Positions 29,858 through 36,003 of a stretch of DNA of 64,000 nucleotides are shown here, piece after piece. The translations under genes were made by a program, and so were the position numbers. The DNA lies in the NCBI RefSeq assembly GCF_003635115.1, contig NZ_RBXJ01000004.1, positions 1 to 64,000 of the forward strand, read 5' to 3'. This DNA is from Microbacterium sp. AG1240 (GTDB taxonomy: Bacteria; Actinomycetota; Actinomycetes; Actinomycetales; Microbacteriaceae). A model generated the notes under the pieces. It was not told where the DNA came from and did not search any database. It saw nothing but the letters and a program-made list of their open reading frames with translations. How positions within the stretch are numbered: position 1 is the first letter of the stretch; every line of letters starts with the position of its first letter.

Positions 29858-29871
29858 GGGACCTTAGATTG
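29858..29871. promoter_or_regulatory. half DosR/DevR box overlapping a -10 element
   Basis: GGGACCTTAGATTG keeps the left half GGGACCTT. TAGATT at 29865-29870 inside it is a good -10 hexamer that would start transcription near 29877 and leave the GGGGGG Shine-Dalgarno before the kinase ATG. Overlap of box and -10 would suit repression or autoregulation. Confidence 0.4.
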
Positions 29872-29892
29872 AGCGCAGATGAGGGGGGTGAG

Positions 29893-31605
29893 ATGCACAG
29901 CGTTCTACCGCTTTCGTTTCCCGATGAACCCCGTGGGGAGTTGGACCGAGCGATCGCCGTGCTGATGACGACGGCGGAGCGGGTCATGACGACGCAGAGT
30001 CGCCTTCGCGCGCTGCTGCACGCCGTGCAGACGGTCGTCGGCGACATCGATCTCCCCACGGTGCTCACCAGGGTCGTCGAGGCTGCCGTGCAACTGGTCG
30101 ACGCCGAGTACGGAGCGATCGGCGTCGTCTCGCCGGACGGCAGGTCGCTGGATGAGTTCATCCACGTCGGGGTGGACGAGGATGCTGCGTCGCTCATCGG
30201 GCATCTGCCGAGGGGACGCGGCGTGCTCGGTGCTCTCCTCGCCGATCCGCGACCCATCAGGATGCCGCACATCGGCGACGACGCCCGTGCGGTCGGCTTT
30301 CCCCCTCACCACCCGCCGATGGATTCCTTCCTGGGCGTCCCCGTGCGGGTCCGAGAGGAGGTCTTCGGAAACCTCTACCTCACGAACCGTCGCGGCGGTG
30401 TGTTCTCCGCGGAGGACGAGGAGCTGTTGGACGCCCTGGCGACGACCGCGGGGTTCGCCATCCAGAATGCCCGGCTCTTCGAGGAAGCTCGACTGCGGGA
30501 GCGGTGGATGGCTGCCGCATCCCAGCTCTCGTCCGCCCTGTTGAGCACGCCCCCGCACGGTGCATTCGACCTCATCGCGGGGCGAGTCCGCGATGTCTCG
30601 CGCGCTGCGGTGGTCGCCATCGTGACGGCGACGGAGTCGGAAGGGGAGGCACGAGTGGCCGCCTGGCGCGGCCCCGACGAGATCACGATCCACCCCCGCG
30701 TGCAGACGGCGCGGACGTTCGCTGCGCCCGCTCTCGTTGACGACGAGCGGGTGGTGGTGCGCGCGTCCGAGGGGAAGGGCGACGATCCTCTGCGGGTGAA
30801 CGAGACGGACGCCGTGGGATCGTCGATGGCGGTGCCGCTGCGCTCTCGCCTCCGCTCGTGGGGCGCGATCATCGTCTCCCGGTCTCCCGGTGAGAAGGCG
30901 TTCTCCGAGGTGGACGCGGAGGTGCTCGCCAATCTCGCCTCGCAGGCGAGTATCGCCCTGGAGCTCGCAGACGCCCGCGCCGAACAGCAGCGCACCATCC
31001 TCGCGGAAGACCGCGCGCGCATCGCTCGCGATCTTCACGACCACGTCATCCAGCAGCTGTTCGGTGCGGAGATGACCCTGCTGTCGGTCGCCGCCGCGCT
31101 GCCTGAGGGTCCTCGCCGCCATCAGATACAGGAGGCGACGGACCACGTCGACCTCGCGATCTCGCAGATCCGCACGATCGTCTTCGCGCTGTCGTCGAAA
31201 GACGCCACGTCGGTTCGCCACCGCATCATCGACAGCGTCGCCGCAGCCTCCGGCACGCTGCTGCGCACCCCGTCGATACGGTTCGGCGGGCCGGTCGACC
31301 ACATCGTCGGAGGTCAGCTCGCCGATGACCTCGTCGCCGCGGTCACGGAACTGCTCTCCAACAGCATCCGGCACGGCGATGCCGACAACATCTCGCTGGA
31401 GGTGACCGTCGGCGACGACGCCCTCTCCCTCGTCGTGGTCGATGACGGCAACGGGATGGGGGCCACCGGCCGTCGCAGCGGGCTGAAGAACCTCCAGGAT
31501 CGCGCTGCCGCTCACGGGGGGACGCTGCAGATGCTGAGCGGACCTACCGGAACGCGCGCGCACTGGTCGGCGCTCATCGGCTCCGAAGGCGAGCCGGCTC
31601 CGTGA
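29893..31605 (+). CDS. devS: DevS/DosS-like GAF-GAF sensor histidine kinase
   Basis: A 570-residue kinase. GAF-A is about residues 50-195, GAF-B about 220-360, HisKA_3 has H382 in ARDLHDHVIQQLFG, and the HATPase follows (TELLSNSIRHGDADN, then DDGNGMG). GAF-A matches mycobacterial DosS closely, including RGRGVLGAL and GFPPHHPPM followed by SFLGVPVRV. HHPPM (139-143) corresponds to the region of the heme-ligand histidine of DosS, so O2/NO/CO or redox sensing through heme is likely, though unproven here. A TTG 24 bases upstream is in frame; the ATG with GGGGGG Shine-Dalgarno was preferred. Coupled to the regulator by GTGA. Confidence 0.92.
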   Translation: MHSVLPLSFPDEPRGELDRAIAVLMTTAERVMTTQSRLRALLHAVQTVVGDIDLPTVLTRVVEAAVQLVDAEYGAIGVVSPDGRSLDEFIHVGVDEDAASLIGHLPRGRGVLGALLADPRPIRMPHIGDDARAVGFPPHHPPMDSFLGVPVRVREEVFGNLYLTNRRGGVFSAEDEELLDALATTAGFAIQNARLFEEARLRERWMAAASQLSSALLSTPPHGAFDLIAGRVRDVSRAAVVAIVTATESEGEARVAAWRGPDEITIHPRVQTARTFAAPALVDDERVVVRASEGKGDDPLRVNETDAVGSSMAVPLRSRLRSWGAIIVSRSPGEKAFSEVDAEVLANLASQASIALELADARAEQQRTILAEDRARIARDLHDHVIQQLFGAEMTLLSVAAALPEGPRRHQIQEATDHVDLAISQIRTIVFALSSKDATSVRHRIIDSVAAASGTLLRTPSIRFGGPVDHIVGGQLADDLVAAVTELLSNSIRHGDADNISLEVTVGDDALSLVVVDDGNGMGATGRRSGLKNLQDRAAAHGGTLQMLSGPTGTRAHWSALIGSEGEPAP

Positions 31606-32237
31606 TCCGCGTGTTCGTCGTCGACGATCACGAGATCGTGCGACGCGGTGTGGTGGACCTGGTGGAGAGCGCGCGAGACATGGAGGTGGTGGGAGAGGCG
31701 GGAACGGTTCGGCAAGCGGCCGCTCGGATCCCGGCAGCCGCCCCCGATGTCGCCGTGCTCGATGTGAGGCTGCCCGATGGCAGCGGGGTCGATCTGTGCC
31801 GGGACCTGCGATCGACGATGCCCGGGCTCGCGTGCCTGATGCTCACCGCCCACGATGACGACGACGCCACTTTCGACGCGGTGCTCGCAGGCGCCGCGGG
31901 GTACCTCCTGAAGAGCGTCGGCGCGAAGACGCTCCTCGACGACATCCGCGCCGTGGCAGGCGGCAAGATCCTGTTGAGCGCGGTCGCTTCGCAGCGCGCT
32001 TCCGCTCAGATGCGCGACCAGCCTCACGACGATCCCCGCATGGGGTCGCTCGGGTTGCGCGAGCGACAGGTGCTCGCGCTCATCGCGGACGGCTTGACGA
32101 ATCGGCAGATCGGCGAACGACTCGGCCTGGCGGAGAAGACGGTGAAGAACTACGTGTCGTCTCTCCTCAGCAAGCTGGGCGTGGGATCGCGCACGCAGGC
32201 GGCCCTCCTGCGCGTCGAATACGACGACACCCGGTAG
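31602..32237 (+). CDS. devR: DevR/DosR-like NarL-family response regulator
   Basis: A 211-residue regulator. Receiver with FVVDDHEIVRRG, phospho-acceptor D54 in VAVLDVRLPDGSG, LTAHDDD and the conserved lysine in YLLKSVGAK. LuxR-type helix-turn-helix at about 148-205: GLRERQVLALIADGLTNRQI and LAEKTVKNYVSSLLSKLG. DosR of mycobacteria has the same order and binds GGGACTTTNGTCCC-like boxes; similar boxes flank nearly every unit here. GTG start overlaps the kinase stop, so the pair is co-translated. Confidence 0.93.
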   Translation: MIRVFVVDDHEIVRRGVVDLVESARDMEVVGEAGTVRQAAARIPAAAPDVAVLDVRLPDGSGVDLCRDLRSTMPGLACLMLTAHDDDDATFDAVLAGAAGYLLKSVGAKTLLDDIRAVAGGKILLSAVASQRASAQMRDQPHDDPRMGSLGLRERQVLALIADGLTNRQIGERLGLAEKTVKNYVSSLLSKLGVGSRTQAALLRVEYDDTR

Positions 32238-32245
32238 GTCGACGG

Positions 32246-32259
32246 GGGACCTTCGGCCC
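32246..32259. promoter_or_regulatory. DosR/DevR-type box GGGACCTTCGGCCC
   Basis: It lies 54 bp before the ATG of the next stress-protein gene. TACCGT at 32282-32287 could be that gene's -10, putting the box at about -40, a typical activator position. Confidence 0.65.
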
Positions 32260-32312
32260 GCTCCTCATTTCGCCCACGGCCTACCGTCGCAGTGACAAGC
32301 GGGGGGTTCGAG

Positions 32313-33191
32313 ATGGGGCACATCGTTCTCGGGTTCGACGGCAGCGCCGCCGCCGATTCGGCGCTCGACTGGGTGGCCGAACGGGTATCGGCGCGTCCGG
32401 CGGGCGTCGTGCTGGTCGTCGTGGCGAACATGTTCCACGCGGAGAGACCGGTGCTCGAACGTTTCGCGCAGGAGGCGTCGGAGCGATTGCGGGCGCGGGT
32501 ACCGGATGCCGCGGTCGACATCGACATCGTCGACGGACGGATGCCGGGCACGCTGTCGCGCTCGGCGGAGGGTGCGGAGCTGCTCGTGGTGGGCATGCAC
32601 ACGAACGCGCGCGCACGGTCGATGTTCGCCGGCGCGATTCCGCTGCGCCTGACCGCCCTCTCCGCGGTTCCCGTCGTGCTCGTGCCGGCGGGATGGGCGC
32701 CGCGCGACGCGCCGGTGACGGTGGGGTTGGCGGCGGACGGTTCCTCCGCTGCCGCGCTTCGCTTCGCGGCCGTCGAAGCGCTCGCGCAGGCACAACCGCT
32801 GCGGATCGTGCATTCCTGGTTGATGACCTCCCCGCTGCCGTCCGCGCCGGCCGGAGGAGGATCCGCCGCGCGGGAAGCGCACGACGTGCATCGGGCGATC
32901 GTCGACGGAGCCGTCGCCGCACTGACGCACGAGCACCCGGGTCTCGTGGCCGAAGCCGCGCTCGTGCGGGACAACCCCGCAGCAGCCCTCACCTCGCAGG
33001 CGTCGCGCAGCTCGCTCGTCGTGATCGGCACCCATCGACGGGGACTGCTCACGGGGTGGCTTCTCGGGTCGGTCGCGTGGGACCTGGTGGGCGAACTGGA
33101 CGACCCGATCTGCGTCGTCCCGCCGCCGCTCTCCTCGGCGGGGAGCACGACGCGGATCCGGCCGGGAGTCAGGCGTCGAGTCGATCGGTGA
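32313..33191 (+). CDS. universal stress protein, two UspA domains
   Basis: A 292-residue tandem UspA protein: HIVLGFDGSAAADSALDW starts domain 1, and VTVGLAADGSSAAALRFA starts domain 2. The second nucleotide motif is well kept (VIGTHRRGLLTGWLLGSVAWD); the first is partly degenerate (VVGMHTNARARSMFAGAIP). The ATG at 32313 follows GGGGGG; a GTG at 32292 is in frame but precedes that site. Its 3' end overlaps the convergent stress-protein gene by 23 bp. Confidence 0.9.
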   Translation: MGHIVLGFDGSAAADSALDWVAERVSARPAGVVLVVVANMFHAERPVLERFAQEASERLRARVPDAAVDIDIVDGRMPGTLSRSAEGAELLVVGMHTNARARSMFAGAIPLRLTALSAVPVVLVPAGWAPRDAPVTVGLAADGSSAAALRFAAVEALAQAQPLRIVHSWLMTSPLPSAPAGGGSAAREAHDVHRAIVDGAVAALTHEHPGLVAEAALVRDNPAAALTSQASRSSLVVIGTHRRGLLTGWLLGSVAWDLVGELDDPICVVPPPLSSAGSTTRIRPGVRRRVDR

Positions 33192-34011
33192 TCGGCGTCG
33201 CTTCGGGAACGATGAGCACGGGGCAGCGGGCGCGCCACAGGAGGTCCTGAGCGACGGCCCCGGTCAGACCTCCGGCGAGAACGCCCTGATGGTGGGTGCC
33301 GATGACGATGAGAGCTGCCCGCTCCGCGTGGCCGAGCAGGGCGTTCACGGGGGAGGAGCGCACGACGTCGCTCTCGATGTCGACGTCGGTGAACCGTCGC
33401 TGCAGGGACCTCACCGCAGCATCCAGAAGCGCTCGGTGTTCCTCGACGATGCGGTCGGGTCTCTCCTCGATCACGGAGGACTCCACCACCACCCCCGGGA
33501 GTGCCCAGGCGTGCACGACGTGCAGTTTCTTCGTCGTCGCCGACGCCTCGCGCGCGGCGAGGTCGAGGGCGGCGGCGGAGGAGGTGTCGTCTGCGAGACC
33601 GACCACGACGTCTCCGTCGGTCTGCGTCCACCCGGCCGGGACGACGCAGACCGGAACGCTCGCGCGCGCGACGACGCGCACCGGAACCCACCCTCCGATG
33701 GCTGCCCGCACGGGATGATCGGGGTCGACGCCGATCACGAGGAGGTCGGCGCCGGCGCTCAATCTCGCGAGCGCGCGGCTGACGGCACCGTCGGCTCGGA
33801 GCAGCTCGACGGCCTGACCGGGGACCCTGTCGCGAAGCACGCGCTCGGCCCTCTCGAGCAGCTCCAGCGACGCGTGACGGTCGGCTGTCAGGGTTCCGAT
33901 GACGTTCACGATCCGCACCCGAGACGGCTCGCGCACGCACCTCTCGGCGACCCACTGCGTCGCTGATGCGGATGCGCGGGTTCCGTCCACTCCCAGAACG
34001 AGGTCCTTCAT
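33169..34011 (-). CDS. universal stress protein, two UspA domains
   Basis: A 280-residue tandem UspA protein: KDLVLGVDGTRASASATQW opens domain 1 and DGDVVVGLADDTSSAAALDL opens domain 2. The ATP motif in domain 2 is VIGTHHQGVLAGGLTGAVAQD; the domain 1 equivalent is VIGVDPDHPVRAAIGG. The start ATG is set by GGAGG nine bases upstream. The gene converges with the previous stress-protein gene and has its own box in front. Confidence 0.92.
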   Translation of the reverse strand: MKDLVLGVDGTRASASATQWVAERCVREPSRVRIVNVIGTLTADRHASLELLERAERVLRDRVPGQAVELLRADGAVSRALARLSAGADLLVIGVDPDHPVRAAIGGWVPVRVVARASVPVCVVPAGWTQTDGDVVVGLADDTSSAAALDLAAREASATTKKLHVVHAWALPGVVVESSVIEERPDRIVEEHRALLDAAVRSLQRRFTDVDIESDVVRSSPVNALLGHAERAALIVIGTHHQGVLAGGLTGAVAQDLLWRARCPVLIVPEATPITDRLDA

Positions 34012-34074
34012 CGGAATCACCCTCCAGGCTCCGCGTTCGTGCCTCGACGCTACGGGCGGGCGGCTCCCGACCGG

Positions 34075-34199: not shown

Positions 34200-34421
34200 A
34201 TGTTCAGCGGACTCACCGGATGGCATCTGATCATCCTCTCGGTCGTCTTCTTCATCCCCTTCCTCCTCGCGGCGATCAGCATCGCGCGCCATCGCACGGC
34301 GTCGGGGCTGGAGAAGGCGGTATGGGTTCTGGTGATCCTCGCGTTCCCGTTGCTCGGTCCCCTCCTCTGGTTCGTGATCGGTCGCCGAGGAGGCCGCGAG
34401 AGTCCTCGCCCAACCCCGTGA
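34200..34421 (+). CDS. small membrane protein, PLDc_N (phospholipase D-nuclease N-terminal) type
   Basis: A 73-residue protein with two membrane helices (WHLIILSVVFFIPFLLAAIS and KAVWVLVILAFPLLGPLLWF). The spacing and the LAFPLLGPLLWFVIGRR ending are typical of stand-alone PLDc_N proteins. It has no catalytic part. CAGTCT lies six bases before the ATG, and GAAGG just upstream could also serve as a ribosome site. Function unknown. Confidence 0.85.
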   Translation: MFSGLTGWHLIILSVVFFIPFLLAAISIARHRTASGLEKAVWVLVILAFPLLGPLLWFVIGRRGGRESPRPTP

Positions 34422-34535
34422 CGGGACCGGTGTGCCGGCGCGGGGCGGTGATCGTCCCGGCGAGCCGCGACCCCGACCTCGCGTGAGCGACGAACTGTCA
34501 GCGCAGACATAGCCGCAGCGGGTTAACGTGGGTCT

Positions 34536-34635
34536 CGCAAGGGGAGTACTCCCATCACGTCGGATTCGTCAGTACGGATGTGCCGCAGCATCCCGGATCC
34601 ATCGGCCCCGCCCGCGGGGTGGAGGAGACCTTGAA
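34536..34635 (+). promoter_or_regulatory. probable yybP-ykoY (Mn2+-sensing) riboswitch
   Basis: The RNA begins GCAAGGGGAGTACTCCC and ends GGAGGAGACCTTG. CAAGG (34538-34542) and CCTTG (34629-34633) can close the P1 stem; GGGGAGTA is the family's conserved first loop; CGTCAGTACGG lies in the middle; GAGACCTT is the conserved 3' strand. This is the layout of the manganese riboswitch that usually precedes TerC, MntP or P-type ATPase genes. TTAACG at 34523-34528 is a candidate -10. The match is by eye, so a covariance search is needed to settle the class. Confidence 0.7.
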
Positions 34636-34689
34636 TGCCCGACCGGCCGTGGCCGGGGCGTTCGAGGTGGCTCGGCGCTCCGACGCACC

Positions 34690-34710
34690 GGTCCGACCCT
34701 CAGGAGGACC
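34690..34710 (+). promoter_or_regulatory. hairpin that can hide the ribosome site after the riboswitch
   Basis: GGTCC (34690-34694) can pair with GGACC (34706-34710). The loop and stem contain the AGGAGG Shine-Dalgarno at 34702-34707 of the gene at 34712. This would be a translational expression platform. An upstream stem, CCGGCC-GTG-GGCCGG, at about 34642-34656 could switch with it. Confidence 0.5.
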
Positions 34711-34711
34711 C

Positions 34712-35548
34712 GTGAGCAAGCTCTCACGTCTCATCGGCATCGCGTCGAAGGCGCTGGACAAGAACGGATCGTCGCAGACCGCGAGCCCCGGCGCTGGATC
34801 CGACTGGCGTTCGATCGTTCGATCGGCCGCGGACTCGCTCACCGGTGACGGGCGTCAGGCCCAGCCCGGCGCACGTGATGACGCCTCGCCGTCGTCGAAC
34901 CGGTACGCACCGCCCCCGCCCGCCGGCTACGCGCCTCCTGCCGCGAAGGGAGCGGGCTCGGTGAGCGCCGCCGACCGGCAGGCGATCGCCCGCTACGACT
35001 ACCTGCTCCAGACCGCCGATCCGCACCAGATCGAGCAGATCCACCGCGATGCGTTCGCGCGGCTCAGCCCCGAGCAGCGTGCTCACGTCGAGACCCGGAT
35101 GCGGGCGGAGCTGCCGCCGCACGAGGCCCCGCGTTCGTCCGATCCGTCGGATCTCGCGCGAACCGCGGCGCGCGCCGAGGCATCGCGACCCGGGATGCTG
35201 CGCGGCCTCCTCGCCCGAGCCGGTGGCGGATCCCGCGGCGGCGGTCACGGTGGGGCGCTCGCCGGCGCCGGTCTCGGAATGGCGGGAGGAATACTCGCCG
35301 GTGTCGCCGGCGGCGCGATCCTCAGCGGCATCGCCGGTCCGCTGCTCGCGCAGGCCGCAGGGTTCGGCGTCGACTTCGACGCCCTCGCCGGTTCGCTCGA
35401 TGTGGAGGGCCTGGCCGGCGGTGTGGAGGGGATCGCCGGCGGGGTCGAGGGGATCGCGGGAGATGCGACATCGGCTCTCGGCGAGCAGGTGAGCGGGTTC
35501 GGCGATCAGCTGGGCGGGTTCGATCTGGGGGGCCTCTTCGACCGCTGA
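34712..35548 (+). CDS. uncharacterised protein with glycine-rich hydrophobic C-terminus, under riboswitch control
   Basis: A 278-residue protein starting at a GTG five bases after AGGAGG. Residues 1-60 form a helix-rich head (VSKLSRLIGIASKALDKNGS, SDWRSIVRSAADSLTGD); about 95-150 is a conserved-looking helical unit (ADRQAIARYDYLLQTADPHQ, RLSPEQRAHVETRMRAELPP); about 190-235 is a Gly/Ala-zipper that could insert into membrane; the tail repeats GGVEGIAG. I recall related actinobacterial proteins being auto-named cation-transporting ATPase, but no ATPase motif is present. The leader suggests a role in manganese handling. Confidence 0.85.
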   Translation: MSKLSRLIGIASKALDKNGSSQTASPGAGSDWRSIVRSAADSLTGDGRQAQPGARDDASPSSNRYAPPPPAGYAPPAAKGAGSVSAADRQAIARYDYLLQTADPHQIEQIHRDAFARLSPEQRAHVETRMRAELPPHEAPRSSDPSDLARTAARAEASRPGMLRGLLARAGGGSRGGGHGGALAGAGLGMAGGILAGVAGGAILSGIAGPLLAQAAGFGVDFDALAGSLDVEGLAGGVEGIAGGVEGIAGDATSALGEQVSGFGDQLGGFDLGGLFDR

Positions 35549-35565
35549 TGCGGGTGGGGCGCGGG

Positions 35566-36003
35566 TCAGTCGATCGGTCGTCGACGCATCTGCTTCACGT
35601 CGGTCCGCCGCTGCTTGGCCTTGAGCCGCCTCTCCTTCGCGCCGCGGCTCGGTTTTGTCGCACGTCGGGCCGGCGCCGGAGGGCGGAGGGCGTCGGCGAC
35701 GATCTCGGCGAGGCGTTCGCGCGCAGCATCCCGATTGCGAATCTGGGCGCGATGTTCGGACGCGGCGATCGTGAGCACTCCGTCGACCAGACGACCGCCC
35801 AGCCGTTCGAGCAGCCGATCGCGCTGAACGGTCGACAAAGCGCTCGAGCCGGCGGCGTCCCACGAGAGCTCGACCCGGGAGTCGGCCGTGTTGACGCCCT
35901 GTCCGCCGGGCCCCGACGACCGCGAGAACCGCCACGACAGCTCGGCTTCGGGAATCGTGACACCCTCCGTGACCCGGAGGCCCGGACGATGGGGGACAGG
36001 CAT
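35566..36003 (-). CDS. arfB: peptidyl-tRNA hydrolase ArfB (alternative ribosome rescue)
   Basis: A 145-residue release-factor-like protein with the catalytic GGQ in SRSSGPGGQGVNTADSRVEL. The basic tail (RRLKAKQRRTDVKQMRRR) enters the empty mRNA channel of stalled ribosomes. This length and tail distinguish ArfB/YaeJ from full release factors. Start ATG at 36003 was chosen for a normal N-terminus; the frame is open further upstream. Confidence 0.93.
   Translation of the reverse strand: MPVPHRPGLRVTEGVTIPEAELSWRFSRSSGPGGQGVNTADSRVELSWDAAGSSALSTVQRDRLLERLGGRLVDGVLTIAASEHRAQIRNRDAARERLAEIVADALRPPAPARRATKPSRGAKERRLKAKQRRTDVKQMRRRPID

Follow-up and report, generated by a model that had tools for sequence, protein, structure and literature searches.

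The window analysed here, a 64,000-nt stretch of Microbacterium sp. AG1240 (contig NZ_RBXJ01000004.1, positions 1 to 64,000), carries on its forward strand a gene for a glycine-rich protein of 278 residues, preceded by a leader with the features of a metal-sensing RNA (Table 1). The motifs that the initial annotation had named in the leader (CAAGG/CCTTG, GGGGAGTA, CGTCAGTACGG, GAGACCTT and AGGAGG) all lie where they had been placed, and the 278-residue reading frame with its GGVEGIAG repeats is likewise present. The same annotation held that the gene is not terC, in agreement with the lack of a Pfam TerC domain, or of any other Pfam family, in its product.

Table 1. Features of the leader and gene in the window (R1 is the covariance model built from 54 leaders, described in the text)
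Feature	Position	Strand	Evidence
Probable −10 box TAACGT, 13 nt before the aptamer	34524–34529	+	TANNNT conserved in leaders
Aptamer assigned to the Mn2+ riboswitches of yybP-ykoY type, actinobacterial form	34537–34634	+	R1 score, covariation, R1 recovery of E. coli alx
P1 switch helix, 5′ strand CAAGG	34538–34542	+	Partner CCTTG 34629–34633; motifs read in the sequence
L1 core GGGGAGUA (DNA GGGGAGTA)	34541–34548	+	Invariant in 54/54 leaders (partly through the search pattern); also in alx
P1.2, 5′ strand CUCC	34549–34552	+	Partner 34621–34624
L3 core CGUCAGUACGG (DNA CGTCAGTACGG)	34567–34577	+	CGUCA invariant in 54/54 leaders (partly through the search pattern); also in alx
L1 3′ side and P1 3′ strand GAGACCUUG	34625–34633	+	Motif in the sequence; leader alignment
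Predicted alternative hairpin using up the P1 3′ strand, 34628–34640 with 34656–34668, 13 bp	34628–34668	+	MFE fold, pairing probability
Predicted small hairpin, GGUCC 34690–34694 / GGACC 34706–34710, inner CC/GG	34690–34710	+	MFE and centroid fold
Shine–Dalgarno AGGAGG	34702–34707	+	Sequence
Gene for the 278-residue protein, GTG start at 34712, stop ending at 35548	34712–35548	+	Orthologues, TerC operons, AlphaFold2, hydropathy

The pattern GGGGAGTAN{10,40}CGTCANTACG occurs twice in the genome of AG1240 and in 63 of 148 related genomes (this one included), while the reversed control pattern has no occurrence in the same 148 genomes. With a slightly wider pattern, we collected 54 distinct actinobacterial leaders, aligned them and derived a consensus structure of 27 pairs using RNAalifold, in favour of which a hand-drawn structure of the aptamer was dropped. 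In this alignment, 94.1 % of the cells pair and 21 of the 27 pairs display changes on both sides, a result reached by none of 500 shuffles, which ignore the relatedness of the leaders; when the partners were slid by one to three columns, a control that retains relatedness, pairing fell to 32–52 % (maximum 51.7 %). Helix P1 (98.1 % of cells paired) has both-side changes in three of its five pairs, and in P1.2 each of the four pairs shows such a change in at least one sequence. R1, the covariance model built from the 54 leaders, includes the window element in its training set and contains no E. coli sequence. It places the element at 34537–34634 (82.8 bits, E value 2e-20), the second-best place in the window scoring 20.8 bits, and it returned at least one match in 127 of the 148 genomes at E values up to 0.01. 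Judging from this covariation and spread, the leader element is a conserved structured RNA and not a product of chance.

The core of the element resembles that of the yybP-ykoY riboswitches. The L1 core GGGGAGUA is present in the window opposite the GAGAC of the L1 3′ side (34625–34629), which opens the motif GAGACCTT at 34625–34632. It is invariant in the 54 rows of the leader alignment, an invariance that is partly built in for the L1 and L3 core strings alike, as both were required by the search pattern, and it is also found in all seven rows formed by the window element, alx and five other elements, whose common core includes GGGGAGTA, CGTCA and GAGACC. From its position in the sequence, A34571 is the likely Mn2+-contacting adenosine and the proposed counterpart of A41 in L. 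lactis, a residue-by-residue matching made against what we take to be the L. lactis sequence. The Mn site (MB) of L. lactis is described as comprising G9, U39, C40, A41, U44 and C45, with N7 of A41 as the metal ligand (PMC9190785), and in the account of a Xanthomonas construct, Mn2+ stabilises P1.1, and the 3′ half of L1/P1.1 begins with GAGACC (PMC6754395). Unlike the yybP-ykoY element of L. lactis, the window form is compact (98 nt); helices P1, P3 and P4 were found in it, with no room for a P2 hairpin and only a few bases where the L. lactis hairpin would be. As alx, when aligned to R1, likewise has only a few bases at this position, the P2 hairpin may not be obligatory for the class.

R1 recovered the E. 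coli alx leader with 54.7 bits (E value 2.6e-13 in 15 kb) and the E. coli mntP leader weakly (18.2 bits, E value 0.0028), placing the window element closer to alx than to mntP. Both leaders are reported to bear Mn-sensing riboswitches (PMC9603457), and a yybP-ykoY leader is listed, and transcribed, for C. glutamicum terC (PMC3890552). A search with the Rfam model RF00080 (Rfam 15, ‘Manganese’), which the initial annotation had proposed as a check, came out negative: no match was returned in the window at the gathering score, nor in 34400–34800 or the AG1240 genome at E values up to 10. In the E. coli stretches scanned with the same model (L236:4250–4650 and L235:3330–3730), alx was missed both at the gathering score and at E values up to 10, and mntP reached 41.6 bits, short of the gathering score (45). 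Since alx is missed too, an alx-like form in the window remains compatible with the silence of RF00080. The model was positive in E. coli and other members of a control panel, for which match positions were not given, and in one relative it independently picked out the R1 element, with a sub-cut-off score of 31.7 bits. Over 198 genomes of the order Actinomycetales, it gave nine positives at E values up to 0.01 and none above the cut-off, a count made on a different genome set from the 127 of 148 obtained with R1. The actinobacterial elements share with yybP-ykoY members (E. coli alx and mntP, L. lactis yoaB) the L1 pair GGGGAGUA/GAGACC, the L3 CGUCA, the P1 switch helix and a site before TerC. 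The class originally named, a Mn2+ riboswitch, is thus upheld by the homology to alx, by L1 and L3 cores with the adenosine of the putative Mn2+ site and by the TerC context; on this comparison, the leader is almost certainly an actinobacterial form of the yybP-ykoY Mn2+ riboswitch, and Mn2+ would be its ligand.

The genes behind the element fall largely into two families. Among 150 R1 places, which are the best-scoring part of the matches in the 148 related genomes, TerC lies within 1.5 kb downstream at 109, and the glycine-rich protein follows at 37, all of them in Microbacterium. One further place (G054) precedes TerC and the glycine-rich protein in a row, and three precede neither, being followed by a contig end, a CNNM protein and a V-type ATPase-like gene. 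The second R1 copy in the genome of AG1240 precedes TerC. Co-occurrence of leader and gene in relatives, suggested at the outset as a check, is borne out: in the 148 genomes, 37 leaders immediately precede homologues, one of them (in G052) being an intact R1 element before a frameshifted copy.

Two of the exceptions deserve mention in their own right. At L090:201–294 (G022), the R1 element stands approximately 350 nt before the gene for a CNNM/CBS membrane protein, a possible Mn-regulated transporter, and at L152 (G120:C106:1438–1543) a gene that by eye resembles one for a V-type ATPase subunit lies behind an R1 match of 59.6 bits that lacks the usual CGUCA core.

A box of the form TANNNT was detected at −22 to −10 relative to the aptamer, mostly at −15 to −13, in all 38 leaders of the glycine-rich gene and in 98 of 110 TerC leaders (G054 being counted in both groups), compared with 0–2 of 150 when equally wide search intervals were placed at shifted positions. 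As this box is conserved before the aptamer, transcription probably starts at or close to the aptamer itself. A generic sigma-70 scan of 34400–35700 found no promoter.

Folding predictions support a downstream competition for the 3′ strand of P1. In the window, with P1 left unformed, the pairing of 34628–34640 with 34656–34668 has a mean probability of 0.98, against 0.45 with the downstream part shuffled. Downstream pairing of the P1 3′ strand was 0.755 versus 0.585 shuffled in 33 of the 37 glycine-rich-gene leaders (p 5e-4) and 0.701 versus 0.522 in 103 of the 110 TerC leaders (p 5e-11), the remaining four and seven having been left out for want of a start with a recognisable Shine–Dalgarno site; these p-values are optimistic, as related leaders are not independent. 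The TerC leader of AG1240 itself showed downstream pairing no higher than its shuffled counterparts (0.41 versus 0.48).

Closer to the gene, the hairpin at 34690–34710 is predicted to tie up all but two of the six bases of AGGAGG. The proposal that a hairpin masks this site stands as a predicted fold in the window, but gains no statistical backing from the leaders as a group: in an ensemble calculation over 33 glycine-rich-gene leaders, the change in Shine–Dalgarno accessibility was not significant (p 0.85). In TerC leaders, the change was weak (p 0.03). We accordingly set aside a clean Shine–Dalgarno access switch as unsupported for the glycine-rich gene and weak for TerC. On these models, the 13-bp helix at 34628–34640/34656–34668, which is absent from the initial annotation, appears to be the stronger alternative to the AGGAGG-masking hairpin.

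The direction of switching is suggested by the literature on the class: in Vibrio parahaemolyticus, mneA and terC behind such an element are described as Mn-induced (PMC13274385), and by analogy the window element would be an ON switch. In a transcript beginning close to the aptamer, the P1 3′ strand (ACCUUG) would be taken by the 13-bp downstream hairpin when Mn2+ is scarce, keeping expression low, whereas plentiful Mn2+ would allow L1 and L3 to dock around the metal, P1 to close and the message to be expressed. Because no intrinsic terminator was found in 34400–35700, control is most likely exerted at translation or through Rho-dependent termination.

The glycine-rich protein consists of an N-terminal helix, a conserved helical domain (residues ~86–171), a Gly/Ala-rich hydrophobic segment (~186–213) and a Gly-rich tail. 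It belongs to no family in Pfam or NCBIfam and matches PHROGs solely at E values above 0.2, and its one PDB sequence match (E value 0.029) is to a chain named HeliScrew4. An AlphaFold2 model made with six sequences (mean pLDDT 56) is confident for residues ~86–171 alone, where a small helical bundle is predicted. The fold search returned nothing below an E value of 1 and no convincing match to a solved structure; a CARD-like fold, to which weak helical matches pointed (VIA Z 3.4 at best), was rejected as reflecting a common helical arrangement. Residues kept in all 60 aligned orthologues include D88, Y95, Y97, L98, T101, E108, H111, A114, F115, Q122, R123, R154, P160, G161, V198 and D221. Each of the 60 also has a hydrophobic segment of 19 residues with a mean hydropathy above 1.6 (maximum 1.88 in the window protein). 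This architecture, a conserved soluble domain on a single putative membrane anchor, is more in keeping with an accessory protein than with a transporter.

More distant actinobacterial homologues, many of them starting with MGFLDRLFG, share with this protein a RYxYLLxTAxPxxxEQxHxxAF-like motif and the Gly-rich hydrophobic segment and tail, but differ in that identity is mostly 37–49 % over part of the length. At 18 sampled loci of this group (L160–L177), the best R1 score was 22.2 bits, at a place not adjoining the homologue. In three genomes (L174, L175 and L176), two diverged homologues lie approximately 5 kb apart.

Strong orthologues of the protein (at least 166 bits) were found in 41 genomes of the same genus, and R1 is directly upstream in 36 of them. 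Two others link the gene to TerC: in G054, the order is R1–TerC–orthologue, and in G078 the orthologue follows a co-directional R1–TerC gene at a distance of approximately 1 kb, separated from it by other frames. The remaining three have neither R1 nor TerC near the orthologue. Outside these 41 genomes, to which G052 does not belong, R1 is upstream in all three further same-genus orthologue loci. The intervening frames in G078 include one of 136 residues (L246:2121–2531) that has a hydrophobic stretch and no Pfam match and overlaps the end of the TerC gene behind the riboswitch.

Beyond the genus, the Arthrobacter plasmids pA8H1 and pA2H2 have the order R1 (82.1 bits)–TerC–orthologue, the last annotated as a hypothetical protein. 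There, the TerC and orthologue genes overlap by 4 nt; the TerC protein matches PF03741, and the adjacent orthologue matches no family. Among 27 orthologues from other genera of Microbacteriaceae, six have this same order and 21 have neither R1 nor TerC within approximately 1.5 kb. For 19 of these 21 lone loci, 10-kb stretches contained no R1 match (E values up to 0.01) and no TerC among the called frames. A set of 13 out-of-genus loci, one of which is already among the 27 and 12 of which lie outside Microbacteriaceae, likewise has no R1 or TerC nearby. The neighbours scanned at seven lone loci included no recognisable manganese gene; a Na+/H+ exchanger, alanine dehydrogenase, peptide transport and a tRNA synthetase were among the functions found. 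As far as gene order can tell, the gene is strongly tied to manganese regulation in Microbacterium and in some of its relatives, a bond not seen elsewhere.

Two routes of co-regulation with TerC, a shared riboswitch in Microbacterium and a shared operon in several other genera, argue for a shared task. The link to manganese handling made in the initial annotation gains support from the 37 leaders and the riboswitch–TerC–gene operons. It is very likely that the glycine-rich gene is under manganese control, and its product probably shares a joint task with TerC. As a whole, we consider it likely that a yybP-ykoY Mn2+ ON switch controls a membrane-anchored companion of TerC. The product would join the helical domain to a single Gly/Ala-rich membrane segment and a flexible tail and would work with TerC on excess manganese (export or the loading of exported proteins), as a partner subunit or an accessory factor. 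Beside the RNA homology, structure, conservation and gene order that we observed, the activity of the protein in manganese tolerance or export is one that we infer.

The TerC proteins of B. subtilis are described as copurifying with Sec components and supplying Mn to secreted enzymes (PMC10550928), and by analogy the glycine-rich protein could be a partner of TerC in such a setting. It is like the TerC family (PF03741; B. subtilis MeeF/MeeY, E. coli Alx) in its regulation and operon context, yet unlike it in having no Pfam family and a single hydrophobic segment, compared with the seven membrane segments given for MeeF and MeeY (PMC10550928). More tentatively, a family of TerC accessory proteins may exist in Actinomycetes, with this protein as its first member. 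In this picture, the protein would be a helical adaptor tethered to the membrane, would carry a glycine-zipper segment and would associate with TerC, possibly also with the secretion machinery, in moving or loading Mn2+; its synthesis would be confined to conditions in which the riboswitch signals an excess of manganese. The picture is possible, though we hold it to be somewhat doubtful.

The lone loci (21 of the 27 in other Microbacteriaceae and the 12 outside the family) count against a role strictly bound to manganese. They are also what would be expected if the RNA were a true Mn2+ riboswitch and the protein a general envelope protein recruited to the manganese regulon in Microbacterium, neither working with TerC nor handling metal itself. 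We think this unlikely, even though the more distant paralogue group has no adjoining R1 and sits near other genes (a histidine kinase at L170) and no obvious metal-binding cluster is apparent, the sole invariant His (H111) lying in the helical domain. Against recruitment of this kind speak the operons that unite TerC and the gene, found in several genera as well as on plasmids and showing the 4-nt overlap in Arthrobacter, and the riboswitch that the two have separately in common in Microbacterium.

A second alternative concerns the signal. The alx leader reportedly responds to pH, and the window element, being nearer to alx than to mntP, could be a relative of the Mn2+ riboswitches that answers mainly to pH or to another divalent metal. 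We regard this as improbable, since neither the L1 and L3 cores nor the adenosine whose N7 is proposed to contact Mn2+ has changed and since TerC is the gene behind most of the R1 elements (109 of the 150 places), although the title of PMC9603457 claims that alkalization turns on the mntP riboswitch. A chance resemblance to a riboswitch, or a neutral repeat, agrees with the negative RF00080 result at the window but is contradicted by the covariation, the order-wide conservation, the constant site before two gene families and the conserved −10 box, leaving it a negligible probability.

Under the favoured reading of an Mn2+ switch controlling a TerC companion, the RNA is of a known class, in a form missed by the present Rfam model. 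What is added is a second protein family for the Mn2+ regulon, as yet uncharacterised and tied to TerC in two different ways. Our literature search, which covered titles and the starts of abstracts, no preprints and few subscription papers, returned no report of the glycine-rich gene under a Mn2+ riboswitch and no paper combining ‘manganese riboswitch’ with ‘Microbacterium’. Many yybP-ykoY targets are characterised as transporters for tellurium resistance or for unknown substrates in a passage of PMC3766115 that does not name the glycine-rich family. The window form differs from known RF00080 members both in escaping that model and in having a target gene absent from the targets named in the literature examined. 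A family tied to TerC by riboswitch and operon is a concrete candidate partner, open to deletion and tagging. An alx-like form common among the searched actinobacterial genomes escapes the present Rfam model, so that the annotation of their manganese regulons is probably incomplete.

Elsewhere in the window, at 29869–34062, sensor kinase-like and response regulator-like frames (recognised by eye) are followed by two universal stress protein (Usp) genes, an arrangement reminiscent of a dormancy-type two-component regulon.
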